NCBI GenBank assembly: GCA_021737975.1
Contig: JAIPCZ010000018.1
Location: 1 to 49,801 of the forward strand
Direction of reading: 5' to 3'
Length of the DNA: 49,801 bases
Origin: Polaromonas sp.
GTDB taxonomy: Bacteria; Pseudomonadota; Gammaproteobacteria; Burkholderiales; Burkholderiaceae_C
Position 1 is the stretch's first letter. Each line of letters begins with the position of its first letter. Position numbers and translations under genes: made by a program. Positions 29,255 through 43,321 of the stretch are shown here, piece after piece. Below the pieces are notes generated by a model. The model was given only the letters and a program-made list of their open reading frames with translations, was not told where the DNA came from and ran no database searches.

Positions 29255-29330
29255 TCCTCGATAGCTCAGTTGGTAGAGCGCCGGACTGTTAATCCGTAGG
29301 TCCCTGGTTCGAGCCCAGGTCGAGGAGCCA
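29255..29330 (+). tRNA. tRNA-Asn(GTT)
   Basis: 76 bases fold into a standard cloverleaf. The acceptor stem is TCCTCGA/TCGAGGA, the D-loop region is TAGCTCAGTTGGTAGAGC, the anticodon loop is CTGTTAA with anticodon GTT, and the T-arm is CCTGGTTCGAGCCCAGG. The discriminator base is G and the CCA end is encoded. It reads AAC/AAT codons. It marks the boundary between the G+C-rich core part and the accessory region to the right; tRNA genes are common integration sites. Confidence 0.98.
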
Positions 29331-29467: not shown

Positions 29468-29695
29468 CTACGGTGGCGCGATTGCGATCTTCCGATACAC
29501 CATTTCCATGGGCAGGCCCTTCCCATCCCGTGCAGGCGTACCGATCAACTGCCGCAGGCCATCAGTCGCCATTGCAATCCCAGTTAAGCAGCCGACCAAG
29601 GCATCCAGCACATCATCGCGTTGGACATCCTTTCGCATCGTCTCACCGATCACCCCCTGATACAAGCAGATCATGCTATCAAAGTCGACCTGGAT
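29468..29695 (-). pseudogene. Stump of a DUF429 gene (C-terminal part only)
   Basis: The minus-strand frame reads DDVLDALVGCLTGIAMAT and then TPARDGKGLPMEMVYR before the stop at 29468. This matches the end of DUF429 proteins (RDDVLDAL..A.T and PPRD..GLPMEIWY). Complete family members are about 230-250 residues; here only about 75 codons remain and a stop in frame precedes them. The frame runs into the 3' end of the rhodanese-domain gene (its stop is at 29679). It seems that arrival of the island cut this gene. Confidence 0.65.
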
Positions 29696-31679
29696 ACCAA
29701 ATCACACCTTTGAACCCCGCCCTATGGCACGCTAACGACGCCTTATAACTATTCCAATCGCCTTCAACGCCGGAACCAACGACTACAAGCTGAGACTTTC
29801 GATCGTCAGGGAGTTTCGACAAATCGAAGGTATCGTTGCCGCTGATCCGATAACGATTGGTATCAAGTCCTTTGTAAGGAATATTGACAGAACCGTCAAT
29901 ATTGTTTTTTGCAAATTCAGCAGCATCCCGGACATCGATGACGAAAGCACTGCCCTCAACAGCTTGAAGCATTTCGACTTTGGAGGCGGGGTAGATGTCG
30001 AAGTTGTATTCTTGGGGCGTGTCCACAATTTCAATCCATGGTGCATCAGCAAACTCCTTCCCCTTGATGGAGAGCATAGAAGTGGAAACCAGGTATCTAT
30101 GGAACTCTGTGCATTTCTTAGTTCGATTGCTGATCTTGCCGTCATCATATCCAACGATCCTCTTTTTGCGTTCAACAGGGTCTGTTGTACAAAAAAAACC
30201 ATCAGAAAAACTGCCTTTGACTGACGGATCGCCAGTCGCCTCATTCAAAGAAGGATCGATATTTTGCTGAACCAGCATGGTCGATGATCCGTCTGGGACC
30301 AAGGTCGGTACGAACATATTCATTGGCCTGCCGGAGTACTTCGCTGCTCGGTAACCGATCTGCAATCCGAGGAGCCTGGTGGCCCTGACTATGGCGATTC
30401 TAAGTTCGTCGGATTCCTCGGAACTTTGCCAACGTTTCCTTGTCTTAATATCTGCTTCAGCATTCTTTCTGGCCTCTTCGTAGCCGCCTCCTTCCTTATT
30501 CAATGTCATGGAGACATAAACACCCACAGCGCCATTCTTCTTCGTTCCAATCACCCCGCCACTAGGAATCGCCAGCATCTCAACAAGCTCAATCTCCGAA
30601 AAATTGAATCCAAGTGAAAGGTAGTTGTCTTTTGATTCCGGTGGAATCAAGGGAGATGGAGCATGGTCACATACGGCTGGCGTGAAGACTAGAGAAAAGT
30701 CAGCCACCGTCTCATCATCGAGAAACTCAAACGCCGCCTTGTGGAGTCCCTCAAGGGAAGCTCTTAGTTCAGCTGACGCTTTGGGACCTTTGTATACGTC
30801 CGGGCTGAAATGCACCTCGTACTGCTGATTGCGCGCAGTGATTCGATCTTGAATCCGTCCGATAACCTCAGCCCTCTTGGATGCCTCATCAAGCAGTTCC
30901 TTAACAATTTTCTTTGACAGTTTCTTCTTAGGTGTTTTCGTGAGCGTTTTTTGCGCAGTCACCTGCTTGATCAGGCTCTGGATGTTAGTCTTTTTAAGCT
31001 CTCCAAATTCACAAGTGTCAACTACCACATTGTTGCTCCCTCTTGGGTAGCCCTCGAATTCCTCTTTCGGGAGACTGACCGTGAATCGTTCGCCAAGTTG
31101 ACTTGCCTCAGCAGTAAAGCCAACGCCATCCAGAGACGGCTCCATTTTTTCGCCTTTTTCTCGCCATTCGACAAGCCACTGTAAAACAGATTGATGGTTC
31201 ACATCAAGTTTTGTGAATTCCGCCAATGCGGCTTTTGTTTTTTTGTTGTCACCGTAGAATTCACGACGGTACATGTCGAAGACGACTCGGCGCAGTTTTC
31301 GTTCGAGCACGGGGGAGGAAAACTTAAGATCGTCAGTCAAAACCTCGATTACACGGCCATCTTTGTGATCAAGGTGGGCCCAGGCATAAATACAAAGCTC
31401 TTCTTTTGGACGATGAACGACACAACCCCATTGAGTATCGTGCTCCGGGAATGTTCCGGACATGGAGTCCTTGTGAATGAATACGGCAAATGACAGCAAA
31501 TTTTTATTCTTCCCTGACTCATGGCTTTCGCTTTCACCGTAGCCGTCAAAAATTATTTTTATTCCACACGGCACATCGCCAGAATCTTCGCCTGGAGAGA
31601 TGTCATACTTATTCATCGTGGACTCAAAATCACCGACCCATCCCTCGATAATTTTGTCAAAGCTAATTGGTATATGCAT
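29679..31679 (-). CDS. Large protein of unknown function with C-terminal degenerate rhodanese domain
   Basis: 666 residues; ATG 31679 has a perfect AGGAGG 6 bases upstream. Residues 1-550 match no family I recognise. A lysine-rich helical stretch (TPKKKLSKKIVKEL) is near residue 255, and no signal peptide or membrane segment is visible. The last 100 residues form a rhodanese-like domain: AFVIDVRDAAEFAKNNIDGSVNIPY and then the active-site loop VVVGSGVEGDWNSYKA, where the usual Cys is Gly, so sulfur transfer by the normal route is not possible. The W-N-S-x-K and IWYPG pattern recalls the CXXCW-motif subgroup of rhodaneses. Third gene of a codirectional set with two nucleases, 59 bases after the PD-(D/E)XK gene. 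Confidence 0.8.
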   Translation of the reverse strand: MHIPISFDKIIEGWVGDFESTMNKYDISPGEDSGDVPCGIKIIFDGYGESESHESGKNKNLLSFAVFIHKDSMSGTFPEHDTQWGCVVHRPKEELCIYAWAHLDHKDGRVIEVLTDDLKFSSPVLERKLRRVVFDMYRREFYGDNKKTKAALAEFTKLDVNHQSVLQWLVEWREKGEKMEPSLDGVGFTAEASQLGERFTVSLPKEEFEGYPRGSNNVVVDTCEFGELKKTNIQSLIKQVTAQKTLTKTPKKKLSKKIVKELLDEASKRAEVIGRIQDRITARNQQYEVHFSPDVYKGPKASAELRASLEGLHKAAFEFLDDETVADFSLVFTPAVCDHAPSPLIPPESKDNYLSLGFNFSEIELVEMLAIPSGGVIGTKKNGAVGVYVSMTLNKEGGGYEEARKNAEADIKTRKRWQSSEESDELRIAIVRATRLLGLQIGYRAAKYSGRPMNMFVPTLVPDGSSTMLVQQNIDPSLNEATGDPSVKGSFSDGFFCTTDPVERKKRIVGYDDGKISNRTKKCTEFHRYLVSTSMLSIKGKEFADAPWIEIVDTPQEYNFDIYPASKVEMLQAVEGSAFVIDVRDAAEFAKNNIDGSVNIPYKGLDTNRYRISGNDTFDLSKLPDDRKSQLVVVGSGVEGDWNSYKASLACHRAGFKGVIWYPGRL

Positions 31680-31738
31680 GGATGCCTCCTGTGAACAGTC
31701 TGAGAAATATTTATTTTTTAGCAGGTTTATTGATTAAT

Positions 31739-33049
31739 CTATATTTCCTCAAATGCCGCATCAAAGGCAATTTTAGTAAGCGCGACTAATGCCTTCTCAA
31801 CCGGAATATTCAATTGATCCCTCACATTAAAAAGGGCAATTGTTTTAGATTGCTCAAATAAATCTATTAACTCAACGTCATGAGGATCAATAAATTCGCC
31901 ACGTCGGAACTCATCCATTGTCATCTTTTGTGGACGGCTAAAACTTATCTCAATGACTGTATTAGATGTTCTCCCATCGCAACGAAGGGTGAATATTCTA
32001 CCTTTCAAATTTCGGATTTCGAAACCAACTGTTTCAATCATATTTTGTGTTAAAAATCCAACGTATCTCAATTTTGACGATCGATAATTTATTACAACTG
32101 ATTCTTGAAGACTGAGTTGACAGTCACGCACAGTCTTGTTTATAAGACCAATTAGAAGCACAGCAAATGACCGCCCCTTCAGTATCCTCGCAGGCCACAT
32201 ATCCCAAAATACTTCTGCTGCTTCATTAACTAACATTCCACTGTCAGTTTTATCCTTAACGCTTCCAAAATTTTCCGGATGAAACCCGTTTCGAATGAAC
32301 CTCATCATTGATCGAATCAAGAGATTTGAATGGCTAGATGCTGGATCAATCAGACCCGATTGTTCTTTGTGCAGAATTTCTTCTGCTATCTCGGCGATAT
32401 ATCCAATCGTACTAGATAAGTCATCCACGGTTGCTTGATGGTTTGATACAGGACAATCGAGCCAAGCGTACGAAGCAATTAAATCATTGGGGTGTTTACT
32501 CTTTAATTGATTAAACTCTAAATTTAGTTCAGACCATAATGGTTCACTCCTGCCGCTGCGCAACAGCTTTGGAGTTAGATAGACAAAAATAATCGGTTCA
32601 TTTTTGTCGAAAGTTTCTCTTAGATATTTATATTCATCGACTAATTGATTTTTATCAGAAGCACTTTCTTTATAAATTTTATTTTCTATAGCAACCACTA
32701 ATCGTATATTGTTATTTGAGTCTATTATTCGAATAATTAGATCGATCGTACGAGCTTTTTCCATCTTTTCATCATTTAAACCTAAAAACGTCTCCTCTAA
32801 TTCAATTTCTATTGCACCTGCACGACCGATGAGTTCTTGAACTCCATCTCCCCTACTAGTCAGACCTGGGAAAACTCCATTACCTATCAATTCTTTCAAC
32901 TGTTTTTCCAATGGACGTAGGAATTCAACCATTGTTGACCGTCCATAACCGTGGGATGCCGTTGGATCAAGAATGAAGCCGAGAATTGAACTCATGTTCG
33001 TTTCAGTTATCCGGCCATTTCCATAACAGAAAATATCAAAAATATTCAT
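31739..33049 (-). CDS. PD-(D/E)XK nuclease superfamily protein (PDDEXK_4-like)
   Basis: 436 residues. The N-terminal ETNMSSILGFILDPTASHGYG is the typical opening of this group (E16 as the first acidic residue). The nuclease core has D103 in RTIDLIIRI and E122-x-K124 in VVAIENKIYK, followed by a QLxxYK helix (Q135). The C-terminal 250 residues are not recognised and may bind DNA or a partner. It is very A+T-rich: of bases 32641-32700 only 14 are G or C. It is the middle gene of the DUF2779/nuclease/rhodanese set, 41 bases after DUF2779. Relatives occur in phage-defence and restriction contexts; the exact target is unknown. Confidence 0.85.
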   Translation of the reverse strand: MNIFDIFCYGNGRITETNMSSILGFILDPTASHGYGRSTMVEFLRPLEKQLKELIGNGVFPGLTSRGDGVQELIGRAGAIEIELEETFLGLNDEKMEKARTIDLIIRIIDSNNNIRLVVAIENKIYKESASDKNQLVDEYKYLRETFDKNEPIIFVYLTPKLLRSGRSEPLWSELNLEFNQLKSKHPNDLIASYAWLDCPVSNHQATVDDLSSTIGYIAEIAEEILHKEQSGLIDPASSHSNLLIRSMMRFIRNGFHPENFGSVKDKTDSGMLVNEAAEVFWDMWPARILKGRSFAVLLIGLINKTVRDCQLSLQESVVINYRSSKLRYVGFLTQNMIETVGFEIRNLKGRIFTLRCDGRTSNTVIEISFSRPQKMTMDEFRRGEFIDPHDVELIDLFEQSKTIALFNVRDQLNIPVEKALVALTKIAFDAAFEEI

Positions 33050-33090
33050 ATGTTGCTCAATTTACGGCTCAACCAATCCGATCATAAAAA

Positions 33091-35070
33091 TTACGCATTT
33101 GTCGGACCAACAAATTCTCGCCATGCCTCATAAATCATTACCATGGCTAATGTATCCAGTTCACAATAGCGAAGCAATGCTGCCTCGGTACTCATACGAT
33201 CTTCTATTGAAATAGTATCAAACTGCAGCCGAGCAAATGCCGTTGTCGCGGCACCGCCTTCGGCAATTGCGAAATAACTTTCTGATTCCATATTTTCAAC
33301 TATCTCTTGCGGTATGTCACTGAAGACAGACGGTAATAGTTTGTACGGATTTTCTGCGCAGTTGCCAGACTGCTTCCACCAAACCTGATCTGTGAAATTT
33401 AGGCTAGGTATACCTGCTAGATTTCCATAAATCGGCTGCGAATAACGGTCTCGCAAGTAGGTAGATGACTGCAGGACGGCAGGTAGTACTTTTTTGATTG
33501 AGGAACTTCCCTTGGTTGACGGGTGGAAGAAGGCTGACTCTGCCAAGTTACATAAATCGACCATGGCGCGCTTCCCTTTGTGTAAAATTAATTTACCTTT
33601 GTTGAGGATGGTCAACTCAAGGACAGTTGCCCTTATTTGGTCAGCATCCTGAGGAGGAGATGGGTCATCTTCTAATTCTTCGAGGATTGCGTTCAATGTC
33701 GTGTTCTCGTGTGGTGACCACATGAATACTGTGCCGTGATTCCCAATAGCCTTTTGCAGTTCCCGCACGAATTGGTAATTTGGTCTGACACCGGGCGTGG
33801 TGCTCAAGAACTGACTTTTATGCGCCACACTACCGTCGGCTTGCACCTCGTGGTGTGAGAACTGAAATGCTATATTGGCGTAGGGTCGTTGTCCTGAAAA
33901 AAAAGGAATTGGTACACGGGCTGTCTCAAAGTCAATGAAGTGCAAGGGAAACTTCCACGTTGCCATTTCTCGGGCCATAAGTTCCCGGTCTAAATAGAAG
34001 TCTTTGCCTCCTGGCCACTTGCCCGACACTTGCATCCACTGTCGCTGGCTCGGGCTAAGGCCTTCATCATCCTCTGCGTACTTCAAATGTGCCTTCGTTA
34101 CAGCATCCAATCTGTACACCTGACTATCTATCAATGCCTGCTTGTGCTTAAAGTTCCATATGTCGAGGACGGTACCCTGCTCAATCTGCGCGTCAGTCCA
34201 ACCCAAGGCTTGACGCCAGCACTCGTGCATTCCACTCTGGAGTTCGGATGTTCCTGGAACCGCTCGAAATTCGCACTTTGCACAATGCGCGCCGATAGTC
34301 GGAATGATCTTTTTGTCGCTCTGATAATGATCAGCCCACGTCTGTGAGAGTTGCGCCACGGTGCCGGTAGTGCCAGGAGACTTGATCGGTTTCGTGAGAA
34401 TTACATCGACTAGATCGTCAACATTGACACAAGTCAGAATTGGCTCGCCGATGTTGCTCGAATTCGTGCCGTCCTCAACCCGAACACTGGAGCGACCATC
34501 CTTGTCCTGGCAGATCTTGAATTTCTGGTGCAGTCCATCCACGGTGCATGCCTTGGACTTGTCGGCCAACATCAGAAAGCTTTTGATTTTCAAGTCGGGA
34601 AATGCCAGACTCATGACGTGTCGCTGGAAGGCCACGTCCTGCAAGTATGGAAGCATACCCGAATTGATGCCGCCGCTCTTTTGTCGAAACGCAAGCGGAT
34701 CATTCGAGTCGAACGATTTAGCCTTGACCTCTATAAGTTCAATTTGGTCACCTGATTTGCGCAGTACATCAACACGTGCGAACAACCCCCCATGACGGAT
34801 CGCTGCCTCGAATAAGATGACTTCGTCCTGTTGCAGCAGTTTTTGGGTCTCCCTAACTGCTTCTTCATGAACGCTCGACTCAATTTCGTAACCACCCGGG
34901 TACATGAGTTTTGCGAGTTCACCGACCTGAAAGCCCCCCTGTGCTAACGCCATCAAGAAATCATTCTGCTGATTGGCGTCAGCATAGATTTTTGGTTTAC
35001 CCGTGTAATAAAGTTTTGTTGGGCATTCAATTGCCATCTTAAAACGGGTCTTCGTCAGATAGCGCGGCAT
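33091..35070 (-). CDS. DUF2779 protein: Cas4-like PD-(D/E)XK domain fused to a DEDD 3'-5' exonuclease
   Basis: 659 residues from MPRYLTKTRFKMAIECPTKL at 35070; a GTG at 35085 with AAGGAAG upstream is an alternative start. Domain 1 (about 1-290) is RecB/Cas4-like: C16 near the N-terminus, then E88, D101 and E114-x-K116 (LIEVKAK) as catalytic residues, and C263, C266, C284 at the end, which with C16 could hold an iron-sulfur cluster. Domain 2 (from about 375) is RNase H-like: IDFETA gives D379 and E381, and RYCELDTLAMV near residue 640 gives the Y-x3-D end of a DEDDy site. DUF2779 proteins are mostly uncharacterised predicted nucleases. First gene of the three-gene set. Confidence 0.88.
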   Translation of the reverse strand: MPRYLTKTRFKMAIECPTKLYYTGKPKIYADANQQNDFLMALAQGGFQVGELAKLMYPGGYEIESSVHEEAVRETQKLLQQDEVILFEAAIRHGGLFARVDVLRKSGDQIELIEVKAKSFDSNDPLAFRQKSGGINSGMLPYLQDVAFQRHVMSLAFPDLKIKSFLMLADKSKACTVDGLHQKFKICQDKDGRSSVRVEDGTNSSNIGEPILTCVNVDDLVDVILTKPIKSPGTTGTVAQLSQTWADHYQSDKKIIPTIGAHCAKCEFRAVPGTSELQSGMHECWRQALGWTDAQIEQGTVLDIWNFKHKQALIDSQVYRLDAVTKAHLKYAEDDEGLSPSQRQWMQVSGKWPGGKDFYLDRELMAREMATWKFPLHFIDFETARVPIPFFSGQRPYANIAFQFSHHEVQADGSVAHKSQFLSTTPGVRPNYQFVRELQKAIGNHGTVFMWSPHENTTLNAILEELEDDPSPPQDADQIRATVLELTILNKGKLILHKGKRAMVDLCNLAESAFFHPSTKGSSSIKKVLPAVLQSSTYLRDRYSQPIYGNLAGIPSLNFTDQVWWKQSGNCAENPYKLLPSVFSDIPQEIVENMESESYFAIAEGGAATTAFARLQFDTISIEDRMSTEAALLRYCELDTLAMVMIYEAWREFVGPTNA

Positions 35071-35205
35071 TGGTGCTAGGTTCACAACATCTTCCTTCAG
35101 TAAGAGAGCTTGGTTTGTTAAAAAAATGTAGCGCCTACTTACCAAAATCTTTGTTCAACACTCTGCGAGCGACTAGCCCCTTACTGCAGCGGATATTGAA
35201 TAGAT

Positions 35206-35679
35206 TTATTTCAGATGTACGGCCATTAATTCGGTTAACTCAAACATGGATACCTGCGATTTACCAAATACTGAAAAAAGTGCAGCGTCGGTGTTTACTA
35301 TATTTTTATCAACGGAGTCTTGCAGTTTATTCAGCTTGACATGGGCCCACAGCTTGCTAAGAGCCTCCGTGCGTAGTAGCGGACCGGTCCCGACAACTAC
35401 GGCAAGCTCAGCACTAGGTACGAGCAGCCGAGTTAAAGAGTCTTCGCTAATAGTCGGATCGACTTCTGCTTTATATATTTTGTACGACTCTTTGCGGTTA
35501 GCATGGACGACGTTGATAGCGAGCCAATCATCTGCACCCTTGCTGACGAAGCGGTCTATTAACCAAGTTAAGTCTTGATGGAAGTCACCTTCAAAGTCCA
35601 TCTGGTCCAGTGCATTTTCTTCGCTGCATTTTTTATCGCCGTAGAAGGTTGCCCAATGTTTAGAGCTTGGCATTTTCAT
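35206..35679 (-). CDS. Hypothetical protein
   Basis: 157 residues, soluble, no family recognised. The start ATG 35679 is chosen for the AAAAGGG site 9 bases upstream; the longer frame has no added support. The sequence is mixed alpha/beta by eye, with FHQDLTWLIDRFVSKGADDWLAINVV and a C-terminal helical SKLWAHVKLNKL region. It lies 135 bases upstream of the DUF2779 gene on the same strand and could be a further member of that set or an independent gene. The 135-base gap shows no convincing promoter. Confidence 0.6.
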   Translation of the reverse strand: MKMPSSKHWATFYGDKKCSEENALDQMDFEGDFHQDLTWLIDRFVSKGADDWLAINVVHANRKESYKIYKAEVDPTISEDSLTRLLVPSAELAVVVGTGPLLRTEALSKLWAHVKLNKLQDSVDKNIVNTDAALFSVFGKSQVSMFELTELMAVHLK

Positions 35680-35771
35680 TTCAGTTTCCCTTTTCAATAT
35701 TCGATTGCCATAGGGTGCATACATTGCACTTCTGGGCTCCACGGTCAGAGTTAAGGTTTACATGTGGCATT

Positions 35772-36380
35772 CTATGGTAGCTCGACTGGCGACTTGGGAG
35801 TTGCATCGAATTCTGCCTCAAGCCCAGCCTGCGGGTCGCGGTAGGCCGTAACGGAATAGCCACTCGCCTTGATACTGCCCTTGAGATCCACTTGGCGCTG
35901 CCGGTCCTGTGTGGATGCTGGCACAAAGTCACCGCCCTTGGCGCGGGCGTAGCCGGGGGAGCGGCAGTAAAAGAAGGCCCTGTCTTTCATGCGGCGGTTG
36001 TTGACTACGCCATGCAGGATTTCCAGTTCGGTGACGCTTTTTCCACCCAGGTGTTTCTTCAACCAAGGTTGGCGCTCTAATAAATCTGGAGCGAAACCCT
36101 CTGACGGCGGGATCCAGCCGTAGCGCTCACCCATCATGCCGATAAAGTAGGGCCGCGCTCGATCGATCTCGGCGAGGCAAATCGGCAGCACCTCGCCGCG
36201 CTCGGCCTGCTCCACCGTGATGCCCCAACGCAGATCCACGTCTATCAACTCGACGAAGCGATCTTTCAGGTGGTCACGTAAAGCGGGAAACACCCGCTCC
36301 ACCAGCAGGTCACGTTCTTCGCCGAAGTCCCGGAAGGAACTGGAGAGAAAGATTCGGACGGTGCGGGTGGTCAGTGACAT
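35772..36380 (-). pseudogene. DUF4062 protein, truncated (N-terminal domain of a NACHT/TPR-type STAND protein)
   Basis: 202 codons. The start MSLTTRTVRIFLSSSFRDFGEERDLL and the later VDLRWGITVEQAERGEVLPICLAEIDRARPYFIGMMGERYGWIP are strongly conserved DUF4062 motifs. In full-length relatives (nephrocystin-3-like), DUF4062 is followed by a NACHT/AAA ATPase and kinesin-light-chain-type TPRs, giving 800-1300 residues. Here the similarity stops after VTAYRDPQ near residue 185 and 17 unrelated codons lead to a stop, so the ATPase and repeats are lost. It could persist as a short DUF4062-only protein, but truncation is more likely. Such proteins occur in defence islands. Confidence 0.72.
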
Positions 36381-36911: not shown

Positions 36912-37343
36912 TCAGCCAAGCCAGGTTCGGATTTCAGAAACTTGGCTCTGCTCCAGGCCCCTGCTTCCCTCGCACCAAATCAATTCAGGGCAGTGGTTGG
37001 GAAACTCGAATCGACTGTCATCAAGTGCGCGCCAGTTCGATATTTTTCTGGCAAAAACAAACGATTGAATTTCGTGCCATCTGGCGTGTCGTCCGATGAA
37101 AGCATCTCCAGTGATGCCATTAAGTTTGCCTCGGATATTTCGCGGGAAAAGGCATTCTATTTCTCCGTAAGTTGACTGGAATCGCCAACTTGAAGAGACG
37201 ACGATCATGACGTTGGCATTGCCGATTGCATCGAGAAGCAGGGGCATATTGCAGAAGTAGTTGGCAGGTTTGGCGTGGCTAGGGTGAAGGACCCCATCAA
37301 AGTCAAGGAATAAGGTCGGACAGGATGTCGATCGAATTGTCAT
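36912..37343 (-). CDS. HAD-superfamily protein, Swiss-Army-Knife RNA-repair type (HAD_SAK-like)
   Basis: 143 residues. The HAD motif I is LFLDFDGVLHP near residue 13, with both nucleophile and acid Asp; motif II is VVSSSWR. The layout (LLDAI..ANVMIVVSSSWR and a late short C-terminal part) fits the small HAD domain found in Swiss Army Knife RNA-repair proteins and in standalone form in accessory regions. Predicted to act on phosphate at nucleic-acid ends, but this is inferred from domain companies and not shown. It is one of several short genes in a row; the gap to the next gene is 33 bases. Confidence 0.78.
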   Translation of the reverse strand: MTIRSTSCPTLFLDFDGVLHPSHAKPANYFCNMPLLLDAIGNANVMIVVSSSWRFQSTYGEIECLFPRNIRGKLNGITGDAFIGRHARWHEIQSFVFARKISNWRALDDSRFEFPNHCPELIWCEGSRGLEQSQVSEIRTWLG

Positions 37344-39274: not shown

Positions 39275-40606
39275 TCATGTGCTGCCTGTAAAGGAGTCGC
39301 TTTTTAACTTAAGAAGATCGGCCAAAATTTTGCGGCTGGTTCTCGTGGATGGATGCATAGGCCCCAGCATTTTTTCGGCAACCGCCAATGCACGGCGCGA
39401 CAGTGGCTCTGCGGCATCGTAGTTGCCTTTGACTTTAAGTATCAAGGCCAGATTGTTGAGCGCTCTGCCGGTACTGGGGTGCTCTGACCCCAGCGCCTTT
39501 TCTGCAATTTCCAGTGCACGGCGAGCCAGTGGTTCGGCCGCCTCGTAGTCTCCTTTGGCTCTAAGCAGCACGGCCAGATTATTGAGGCTAGTGCCGGTAT
39601 CTGGATGTGCCGCTCCCTGCGCATTTTCCGTAATCGCCAATGCACGGCGATACAGCGACTCCGCCGCGTCATGGTCACCTTTGGCTTTAAGCAGCAAGGC
39701 AAGCGTGTTGAGATGCCTGCCGGTACTCGGATGCTCTGACCCCTGCGTTTTTTCTACAATTGCCAACGCACGACGAGCCAGCGACTCTGCCTCTTCGTAG
39801 TTTCCTTTGACCCGAAGCAGTCCGGCCAGATTGTTGAGGCTCGTACCGGTATCGGAATGTTCTGATCCGTGAGCTTTTTCTGCAATCGCCAATGCACGTC
39901 GATACAGCGGCTCGGCCGATTCGTAGTCTCCTTGGGCCTTAAGCACCAAAGCCAGATTATTGAGATCCCGTCCGGTATCGGGATGCTCTGACCCAAGACA
40001 TTTCTCAGAAATAGCCAACGCACTACGATGCAGATACGCAGCCTCTTTGTAGTTGGCGATGGCTCTAAGAGATGTCCCGAGTGCATCCATGCTTTCAGCA
40101 GTATCAATATGGACTTCGCCAAAAGCCTGCATAGAGAGCGCCAGATGCCGCCGACGCAACGTCACTGCTTCTTGGTAGCGAAAGCGCTCGCTCAAGAACT
40201 CCGCACACTCCTCCAACGCATTCCAGTTATTCCACTTTTGTGTGCTCGGAAGCAAGATTGCCAGCCACGCAAGGACTTGCCGCTGCCACTTCGATTCATC
40301 AAATCTCTCGTATTCACACCACAGGAAACCACCTAGCTCTGATGCACCCGTGGCGTAGGCACAATGCGTTGCGCTGTGGGTGGCGTCCCTTGGCCAGTTT
40401 GAGACGACTAGGTGTAACGCTCCAAGCCCACTGTCCTGATCGAGCATCCCCTGAACCAGACTCGGTAGTAACGGTTCCGAGGCCAGCAAGTGCAAAAGTG
40501 GCTCCAGTTTTTCACACTGTTCACAGAAGTACTTGCTTCTATTCTTGCTAAACACGGCCGGCTCACCGCATCTTGGGCAGGGTGCGTTATGGTTCAAAGT
40601 ATCCAT
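39275..40606 (-). CDS. Zinc-ribbon plus tetratricopeptide (kinesin-light-chain-type) repeat protein
   Basis: 443 residues. The N-terminus has a zinc ribbon: C10, C13, C28 and C31 (CPRCG..CEQC). A middle helical part follows, and from about residue 130 to 435 there are seven TPR units of 42 residues, each marked by a GSEHPDTG-like turn and LNNLALLLKAKGDYEAAEPLYRRAL-type helices. The DNA repeats almost exactly at 126 bases. Such TPRs bind peptides or partner proteins. No enzymatic domain is present. Its start overlaps the stop of the 100-residue gene by 13 bases, and the tandem AAA+ gene precedes that. The repeats resemble those normally fused to DUF4062 proteins. Confidence 0.82.
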   Translation of the reverse strand: MDTLNHNAPCPRCGEPAVFSKNRSKYFCEQCEKLEPLLHLLASEPLLPSLVQGMLDQDSGLGALHLVVSNWPRDATHSATHCAYATGASELGGFLWCEYERFDESKWQRQVLAWLAILLPSTQKWNNWNALEECAEFLSERFRYQEAVTLRRRHLALSMQAFGEVHIDTAESMDALGTSLRAIANYKEAAYLHRSALAISEKCLGSEHPDTGRDLNNLALVLKAQGDYESAEPLYRRALAIAEKAHGSEHSDTGTSLNNLAGLLRVKGNYEEAESLARRALAIVEKTQGSEHPSTGRHLNTLALLLKAKGDHDAAESLYRRALAITENAQGAAHPDTGTSLNNLAVLLRAKGDYEAAEPLARRALEIAEKALGSEHPSTGRALNNLALILKVKGNYDAAEPLSRRALAVAEKMLGPMHPSTRTSRKILADLLKLKSDSFTGST

Positions 40607-40964: not shown

Positions 40965-43100
40965 TTAGGCCGCCGCAAGAAAGCCAATGGGGCGGCTGGT
41001 GGCAAGATGCTTGTGCTTGATTTCTTGCGTCAGGCGGTCGATGAAGTCTTGTGCACTGCGCACCGGAAGCAATTGTGTCTGGCGCAACACATTGGCAAAA
41101 TCTCCAGGCGTGAGCTTGTCCAGCGACAACAGTGCTTGTTTCGCCAGCTCATCGCATTCAATGCCCAAAACTTGGCAGGCATCGGTCAAAAGCGGTGTGC
41201 ATTGTTTGGCCTTGAGATATCCAAAACAAATCTTTGCGTCGAAGCGGCGCATGCTGGCTGCATCGATCTGATTCATCAAATTGGTGGTTGCAAAAAAGAT
41301 GCCTTGAAATGCTTCAATTTGAGTTAGCATTTCGTTCACGGCAGTGATTTCCCAGCTCTGGCGGGCCTGTTCACGGGAACGCAAGAAGCTGTCAGCCTCA
41401 TCCAGAATCAGAACGGCCTTGTCATCTTGTGCGCGACGGAACATCTCGGCCATGCGTGCTTCAGTTTCACCACGGTAAGGGCTCAGAATATCCGAAGCGC
41501 GCTGGAGCATCGGTGGGAGTCCTAGTTGTTCAGCAACATGGACAGCAAAAGCAGATTTGCCGGTGCCAGATGGGCCATACAGACAAAGACGTCCTTCTCC
41601 GCCGGATCGAAGACCCTCCACGACTTGCGCCAGATCACAGTCGGCATTCGCAAAATTAAACTGGTACGCCATGCGACCAGCCAGGGAAGGTTTGTGGCGC
41701 AAGGTGCAAGATTGAGCGGTCATCGCACTCTCTATCACTTCGTCAAGCAAACCCTCAATCGGTGTGGCTACACCAGCAGTCTGCATATCGCCGGCAACCT
41801 TTGCCGCACGCGCCATCATGGCTGGAGCCAAAGATTCATTGGCGGCCATGCTTTCGCACCAGGAATTAGAAACGCCCAACACGGCCACGTGGTCAGCCAG
41901 CATGGTGGCACGAATGCGCGCTGGTGGAATGTCCAGGTGCAGGTGGTAATCGAATCGACGCAGGTGCGCCGGATCAAGAAAGTGGATGTTGTTTGAAATC
42001 CAAATAGCTGGCACCTGGTTCTGCTCTAACAGTTGGTTGATCCAGCCCTTTTTTCCAGAGGGGTTGCCGCGACATGAATGAAAAATGTCATCATCGTCGC
42101 TGCCATTCAAATTGATGTCTTCGATTTCATCAAACACGATCAGTGTGTTTTTGCGAACAGCGAGAATCTTTTGCGACAGGCAGTAAGAGCCCAGACGGCG
42201 CGGCCCGGCAATCCGGTCGCCATCAGCATCTTCAACTGCAACTTGGAAAAGCTCTGCACCCAAGGCCCGAGACAGTGTGCGAGTGAATTCTGTTTTTCCG
42301 GTACCGGGAGGACCGTAAACCAGAACGTTGACACCTTTCTTGCCGTACTCAAGCGCGTGGCGAAGATACATCTGCAAATGATGCATCTTGAGCTTGATGT
42401 GGTCGAAGCGTTCTGCCCCAAGACTGGCCTGAGGTGCAACGATGAAGTTGTCGGCAAAAAGGTCAAACTGATTTTCGTGCGCGACCATCATCCGATCAGA
42501 CAAGCCCTGAATCAACTCGACCTTGTTTGAAAATGGATAATTCTGGCTACCATCGATTCTTACCAAGCCCGCGCGAGATAGCCCGGAGTTTGTGGCGAAT
42601 GCCTTGCTTACCTCGTCAACAGACAATTCAAGCAGCACCGACAAGACGCTATAAACCCGTGTGTTGTTGAGCTCGCCGAGAGTGTCCATTGCCTGATGGA
42701 GATAAACGCTTTGACGCAAGAGTACGCAAAAAAGCAACACGTTCTGCTCGTTCGTGGTCAACCCGACTTGTTCAGCCAGCCAGTGCACGTTAGCAATCAA
42801 GGGACTGTCATGAGGCAGCGCAAGCTCTTGTCCCAATATGGCGCGATGTTTGGCTCTAAGAGCCGCCAGCACATCGTTCTGGCAATACTCGTCTTCAGCG
42901 TTGATGGACACTCCTAGATATGTGATTAACCCAGGCTCGGAGCAGTGCCCATCCATGACAACGGACTGGTAACCACCGAGATCGACCAAGGCGCGCAAGG
43001 CCCACTTCTGGCAGTGCAGAACCAGATCGGACTCAAGAACCTCACAGACAGGTTGAGTTTGAGAATTTGCAAAGGAAACAGGGATACGACGACGCGACAT
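40965..43100 (-). CDS. Tandem AAA+ ATPase
   Basis: 711 residues from ATG 43100, with TTGGAG about 9 bases upstream; a TTG five codons earlier is less likely. An N-terminal helical region (1-230) precedes two AAA+ modules. Module 1: Walker A GPPGTGKT (263-270), Walker B LIVFDEIED, sensor ISNN and arginine finger LRRFD. Module 2: Walker A GPSGTGKS (509-516), Walker B VLILDEADS, sensor ATTN, arginine finger MRRFD. Both sites look active. Two-module AAA+ proteins of this kind remodel or unfold proteins; no protease or DNA-binding domain is attached. It heads a run with a 100-residue protein and the zinc-ribbon/TPR protein. Confidence 0.88.
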   Translation of the reverse strand: MSRRRIPVSFANSQTQPVCEVLESDLVLHCQKWALRALVDLGGYQSVVMDGHCSEPGLITYLGVSINAEDEYCQNDVLAALRAKHRAILGQELALPHDSPLIANVHWLAEQVGLTTNEQNVLLFCVLLRQSVYLHQAMDTLGELNNTRVYSVLSVLLELSVDEVSKAFATNSGLSRAGLVRIDGSQNYPFSNKVELIQGLSDRMMVAHENQFDLFADNFIVAPQASLGAERFDHIKLKMHHLQMYLRHALEYGKKGVNVLVYGPPGTGKTEFTRTLSRALGAELFQVAVEDADGDRIAGPRRLGSYCLSQKILAVRKNTLIVFDEIEDINLNGSDDDDIFHSCRGNPSGKKGWINQLLEQNQVPAIWISNNIHFLDPAHLRRFDYHLHLDIPPARIRATMLADHVAVLGVSNSWCESMAANESLAPAMMARAAKVAGDMQTAGVATPIEGLLDEVIESAMTAQSCTLRHKPSLAGRMAYQFNFANADCDLAQVVEGLRSGGEGRLCLYGPSGTGKSAFAVHVAEQLGLPPMLQRASDILSPYRGETEARMAEMFRRAQDDKAVLILDEADSFLRSREQARQSWEITAVNEMLTQIEAFQGIFFATTNLMNQIDAASMRRFDAKICFGYLKAKQCTPLLTDACQVLGIECDELAKQALLSLDKLTPGDFANVLRQTQLLPVRSAQDFIDRLTQEIKHKHLATSRPIGFLAAA

Positions 43101-43321
43101 GGCGTGGATCTCCAAATTGACCCCTTCATGGAAGTCCGTAAAAGTTAAAAAAAGAACCCGGAAGGGGCCGGAGTCAGCTACTCAAGGTAGTGATGATTAA
43201 GGGGGCGTGATCGTGTTGAGGTCGAAAAACGAATGTGCAGTCCAAACATGGAATCAAAGCGAATTGCGAAATGGTTCTGCACAGCTGTTTTCCGGTTGAA
43301 ATATTCGTTTGATCAGGCTGC

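Follow-up and report, generated by a model that had tools for sequence, protein, structure and literature searches.

Three codirectional genes on a 49,801-nucleotide stretch of Polaromonas sp. DNA (contig JAIPCZ010000018.1 of assembly GCA_021737975.1; hereafter the window) may represent a local variant of a DNA-degradation module that is centred on the DUF2779 nuclease, is often linked to WYL regulators, exchanges its partners and lies in a defence or mobile island; we give this reading a probability of about 0.45. The genes lie on the minus strand and encode a DUF2779 protein (33091-35145, or 33091-35070 with the shorter start), a PDDEXK_4 nuclease of 436 amino acid residues (31739-33049) and a 666-residue protein with a C-terminal rhodanese-like domain (29679-31679). 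A check of the open reading frames (ORFs) bore out the coordinates, common orientation and intergenic gaps of 41 and 59 bases given in an initial annotation made from the sequence alone, and no terminator-like site was seen on the minus strand between the three genes. That annotation had proposed a multi-nuclease antiphage or plasmid-control system of three genes. A defence role for DUF2779 is supported by its genomic context (WYL regulators, neighbours matching PADLOC defence families, GIY-YIG nucleases), whereas the idea of a fixed three-gene system did not hold.

The DUF2779 protein starts at an ATG at 35070 (659 residues) or at an in-frame TTG at 35145 (684 residues), and it is recognised by the Pfam DUF2779 model (PF11074) with 82.6 bits, well over the gathering score of 23.3 (E-value 3.8e-23). 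It belongs to a long clade of about 640 to 750 residues, which is one branch of DUF2779. Nineteen proteins of this clade, the window's included, were aligned from a total of 27, the partial, split, shorter and fused ones being excluded. C16, D101, E114, K116, C263, C266 and C284 are invariant in 19/19 and stand where the initial annotation had placed them. The D, the E-x-K and the four cysteines (an Fe-S type set) of a Cas4/RecB-like PD-(D/E)XK domain are thus all conserved; the PADLOC Cas4 model matched the window protein at an E-value of 0.01 only. DEDDy exonucleases carry the motif D-x-E, D, Y-x3-D, and D380, E382, D505, Y635 and D639, likewise invariant in all 19 proteins, are read as this set, with D505 taken as the third acidic residue by position alone. 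The DEDDy exonuclease domain named by the initial annotation, which is of RNase H-like type, keeps these residues. Distribution of the protein is patchy: only 16 of the 399 genomes in a sample of the family (its own included) gave matches below an E-value of 1e-77. Relatives are also found on the conjugative plasmid pPAES01 of Prosthecochloris and on a large Comamonas plasmid, where the gene lies near type I restriction genes.

To the window's locus we compared 26 other loci with a long-clade DUF2779 gene, 23 of them in genomes, two on the plasmids and one designated L010 (loci, genomes and proteins carry L, G and P numbers, respectively). Two DUF2779 fragments (G379:C92, 70 residues; G086:C351, 34 residues) and all short-clade hits were dropped before counting, and L010, L056, L060, L076, L079 and L080 were retained despite partial genes. 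One recurring partner is a WYL regulator, found by a Pfam search within 10 kb of DUF2779 in 13/23 genomes (expected 0.24) and within 5 kb in 11/23 (expected 0.13), with 47 WYL matches genome-wide across the 23 genomes; a separate WYL model was built from five of the proteins it then found, and the Pfam-based count is independent of it. Another partner is a double-AAA ATPase. The window encodes one of 716 residues (40965-43115, minus strand), which lies 5.8 kb from DUF2779 on the same strand and was overlooked in the initial annotation; this protein is a possible further component of the locus. Its relatives gave 16 matches in the 23 genomes at an E-value of 1e-40 or better and lie within 5 kb of DUF2779 in 5/23 (expected 0.04; for 10 kb, likewise 5/23 with 0.08 expected), and in G429 the relative is on the same strand, separated from DUF2779 by 34 bases. 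All of these expected values are for genes placed uniformly along the genome, a condition that does not hold in islands, so that the significance of the co-localisation is overstated.

A second nuclease lies within 4.5 kb of DUF2779, or is fused to it, in 8/26 other loci, a pattern that was noticed post hoc and needs an independent set. In the window and in L010 this nuclease is a PDDEXK_4 protein. In L069, L070, L074 and L076 it belongs to a family of 220 to 285 residues with a D...E-x-K motif, seen by eye in an alignment and assigned to the PD-(D/E)XK fold by this motif only. In L067 and L072, DUF2779 has a LEM-3 GIY-YIG protein nearby, and these proteins match PADLOC PD-T4-3 with E-values of 5.8e-16 (the weaker match) and 5.6e-105, respectively. 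Finally, a single frame of 1106 residues in L055 (8153-11473) fuses a LEM-3-like GIY-YIG domain to the DUF2779 nuclease.

The initial annotation had called for a test of association with known defence genes, and this association was seen in direction rather than in size. At an E-value of 1e-10, 134 ORFs neighbouring DUF2779 match 91 PADLOC families and 112 control ORFs match 28, a contrast inflated by controls that are high-GC core ORFs including shadow ORFs, so that its direction alone is trustworthy; moreover, what is counted is families, many of which overlap, and not proteins (a single pair of helicases gives many ZorD families). WYL, oligonucleotide cyclase, ZorD, DpdE and PD-T4-3 are among the 25 families shown for the neighbour ORFs, and some matches are generic in both sets alike. 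The neighbour set omits one very long ORF (L069:454-5751; 135 reduced to 134) and receives no ORF of at least 150 residues from L031. The controls come from 14 stretches in nine genomes (15 of the 20 stretches requested were obtained) after exclusion of L090, where the ORF spans the whole stretch, and L084:4676-9127 (114 reduced to 112).

The second of the three genes encodes a member of PDDEXK_4 (PF14281), with 46.4 bits against a gathering score of 22.3 (E-value 5.8e-12). E85, D103, E122 and K124 are invariant in 23/23 aligned proteins, the window's included; the site is intact, as the initial annotation had stated for the last three residues. A structure model with a mean predicted local distance difference test score (pLDDT) of 79 aligns over approximately the first 250 residues with restriction endonucleases and other nucleases, the best match being the small subunit of R.BspD6I with a middling Z score of 7.2. 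This agrees with, rather than proves, a restriction-endonuclease-like N-terminal part. Proteins of this type are rare: one strong match (the window's own) and three weak ones were found in 198 genomes, its own included. Eight PADLOC models of the candidate system PDC-S26 match the protein (best E-value 4e-13, residues 100-176, no curated cut-off being given). Upstream of two PDDEXK_4 genes (L010, 2-2269; L011, 4143-6942) we observed a common gene pair encoding a large protein and a 131-residue protein (57% identical); the L010 copies of the pair gave no Pfam match at 0.01.

The rhodanese tail that the initial annotation assigned to the 666-residue protein is supported by Pfam (E-value 2.2e-7, residues 571-664 only), but that annotation had missed the absence of the loop cysteine. 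The loop reads G-S-G-V-E-G-D (635-641), at what we take to be the position of the active-site cysteine. Only two further members of the family were found in 5.8 billion proteins, P0002 (378 residues, 74% identity) and P0003 (793 residues, 29% identity over the whole length of the window protein), and the cysteine is missing in all three known members. The window domain resembles seven short rhodaneses from related genomes (L002-L008), all of which have the cysteine. Because the cysteine is absent from the window protein, P0002 and P0003, this protein is probably not a sulfurtransferase or other enzyme, and the loss is easier to reconcile with binding than with catalysis. A profile search yielded no member beyond P0002 and P0003, and no full-length relative was found in 147 other related genomes, two contig collections and plasmids. 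The family is thus nearly unique in the searches made. Since the protein searches scored no more than about 8,000 candidates, preselected by shared words and similar length, remote relatives may exist. Structure prediction gave no confident model for residues 1 to about 560.

Conservation of the trio was the point on which the initial annotation had staked its proposal, and the three genes were not found as neighbours in other genomes. PDDEXK_4 accompanies DUF2779 in 1/26 other loci, namely in L010, where genes for a 198-residue protein and a WYL regulator lie between them. The 666-residue protein, expected to adjoin both nuclease families, was found in 0/26 other DUF2779 loci and in none of the 16 PDDEXK_4 loci of the genome collection, one of which has DUF2779; absence is weak evidence on the short contigs (L031, L060, L068, L010, L072, L067 and several of the 16 PDDEXK_4 loci). 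A fixed or recurrent set of three genes is not supported in what could be searched.

In the proposed module, a partner endonuclease (the PDDEXK_4 enzyme in the window; elsewhere a PD-T4-3/CMoRE-like GIY-YIG or other PD-(D/E)XK-like enzyme) would introduce the initial break into invading DNA; through its two exonuclease-type sites (Cas4/RecB-like and DEDDy), DUF2779 would chew the DNA from its ends. Degradation from the ends presupposes such a cut, which the varying partners would supply. The WYL regulator, found at other loci, would hold the module quiet until attack, remodelling or loading may fall to the AAA ATPase, and the 666-residue protein would most likely be a non-catalytic subunit for recognition, scaffolding or control. 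The intact conserved nuclease residues, the cysteine loss, the co-localisation, the PADLOC-rich neighbourhoods and the GIY-YIG fusion or proximity are what was observed; we infer nuclease activity itself, the order of cutting and chewing, a function against phages and what the WYL, AAA and 666-residue proteins do. If the scheme is true, a widely scattered domain gains a role as a general end-degrading engine that takes different endonucleases, with the simple prediction that partners are swapped or deleted and the engine is kept. Annotation of defence islands would gain a component that has no PADLOC match of its own here. The locus also reveals a nearly unique protein family whose rhodanese-like domain has lost its loop cysteine. 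More broadly, and more tentatively, long-clade DUF2779 could form the shared core of a modular defence system not described so far, in which a WYL-controlled dual-exonuclease engine is combined with a double-AAA ATPase, a first-cut endonuclease that can be exchanged (PDDEXK_4, GIY-YIG or other PD-(D/E)XK) and extra specificity proteins such as the 666-residue protein.

Several observations weigh against the exchangeable module, in addition to the limits on the co-localisation and PADLOC counts given above. The loci had already been seen when the AAA and nuclease classes of partner were picked. No WYL match was found in the window's own genome, which is about 70% complete, and PDDEXK_4 was unmatched in the 23 DUF2779 genomes (that scan had no positive control, although the same model matched the window gene in another). 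The 220 to 285-residue family gave nothing above the Pfam cut-off for the two members scanned alone, and hhalign, run with no positive control, detected no similarity between this family and PDDEXK_4. Ordinary metabolic families (thiolase, acyl-CoA dehydrogenase, molybdopterin oxidoreductase; annotated genes in L062) are also among the neighbours, and the complete absence of the 666-residue protein from the other DUF2779 loci points the same way. The broader DUF2779 family may have other roles, because a Mycoplasma bovis gene appears among the transposon mutants listed in the available part of a cell-culture study (PMC7373297). Defence islands collect unrelated systems, and neighbourhood alone is no proof of joint function.

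The three genes could be unrelated inhabitants of an island, in which DUF2779 and PDDEXK_4 each act alone in defence and the 666-residue protein is unrelated cargo, and this is a real if rather doubtful alternative. It would explain why the trio was found nowhere else in the searches made, why no DUF2779 was found at 15 of the 16 PDDEXK_4 loci and why a PADLOC candidate system matches PDDEXK_4 by itself; the tight spacing on one strand, uninterrupted by a terminator-like site, and the recurrence of the two nuclease genes as neighbours in L010 are harder to reconcile with it. A dedicated three-gene defence system in which the rhodanese-tailed protein senses or regulates draws on the same operon-like layout, on P0003 as a sign that the 666-residue protein represents a genuine family and on the binding role suggested by the cysteine loss, yet it is unlikely given that this protein was seen at none of the 26 other DUF2779 loci and 16 PDDEXK_4 loci. 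Slightly less probable still is a function in DNA repair or recombination (RecB/AddB-like end processing) or in plasmid maintenance: the Cas4/RecB-like and exonuclease architecture and the plasmid-borne relatives are what such a function would predict, but the patchy distribution, the WYL partners, the PADLOC-rich neighbours and the type I restriction genes near the Comamonas copy argue against it.

Parts of the proposed module resemble described systems. DUF2779 corresponds to RNase H-like clade F.17, a predicted 3'-5' exonuclease found with the PD-(D/E)XK-like DUF83 domain (PMC3985635); the available text of that paper gives it no defence role and no WYL, AAA or endonuclease partnership. A defence role was likewise not found in the accessible parts of other literature on DUF2779 (including PMC7373297 and PMC8442362), and titles and abstract openings retrieved for rhodanese and anti-phage, PDDEXK_4 and defense, WYL and defense island, and DUF2779, DUF2130 and AAA did not contain this combination. 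PD-T4-3, now named CMoRE, is a type IV restriction enzyme of the GIY-YIG kind; its substrate is DNA carrying 5-hydroxymethylcytosine (5hmC) or the glucosylated form (5ghmC), which it degrades, and it is described, in the part available, as a single-component defence (PMC12923530). Its homologues stand beside DUF2779 in L072 and, more weakly, L067, with the related fusion in L055, whereas the window partner is a PDDEXK_4 enzyme and no LEM-3-like GIY-YIG domain was found among the window proteins scanned (ten with Pfam, eight with PADLOC). The PDC-S26 models resemble the PDDEXK_4 protein in their best stretches within residues 2-176, the catalytic part, but leave the C-terminal part uncovered. 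UvrD-Cas4 fusion nucleases (pfam12705) occur in defence contexts, several of their loci with WYL regulators, according to the portion seen of PMC5704561; there, as in DUF2779, a Cas4-like nuclease is joined to a second DNA-processing domain, which is a superfamily 1 helicase rather than a DEDDy exonuclease. The double-AAA protein is matched by IetA models (best E-value 2.8e-34) over its AAA domains, which TRIP13 models and others also match. In IetAS, the IetA ATPase is paired with the protease IetS; no such partner was seen among the window proteins scanned, and no search was aimed at it.

The setting of the genes is likely, though not proven, to be an island at a tRNA gene. As the initial annotation had it, the block begins after tRNA-Asn (29255-29330, plus strand), which forms the left edge of a region from about 29 to 48 kb where GC content falls from approximately 0.66 to 0.38-0.58. 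The short-chain dehydrogenase/reductase gene upstream and this tRNA were matched nearly whole in 7/87 other genomes of the genus. Six of the seven were inspected: in three the contig ends just past the tRNA, G021 and G052 carry other genes, and G066 (L101) has, judged by eye, an integrase-like gene directly after the tRNA and a SIR2-like gene three genes further. Both lie within L101, 1348-7657, and the SIR2-like product has 857 residues. No gene in the window block was recognisable as an integrase, and a search of the other 87 genomes did not recover the window's right flank.

The next gene upstream of DUF2779, on the same strand, encodes a stand-alone SWIB/MDM2-domain protein of 178 residues by Pfam (35206-35742), without a relative among the ORFs called in other DUF2779 loci. 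DUF4062 is usually part of longer proteins, and the window copy (35772-36380, 202 residues) is short by comparison and may be a remnant. A tetratricopeptide repeat protein (39275-40606) has a zinc-ribbon-like start by eye, and its gene holds five diverged copies of 252 nucleotides spaced 126 nucleotides apart. A family of 172 to 665 residues recurs near long-clade DUF2779 in L055, L059, L060, L067, L071 and L077, often with WYL or AAA genes; three copies scanned alone gave no Pfam match, and the similarity of the L067 copy to that of L055 is confined to the N-terminal part of the latter. Another family of 193 to 249 residues lies upstream of DUF2779 in L057, L069 and L076, with a four-base overlap in the latter two and a WYL gene in between in L057. 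In L074 and L075, relatives of the window HAD_SAK_2 protein (36912-37343) with about 40% identity lie at a distance of approximately 4.5 kb from DUF2779.
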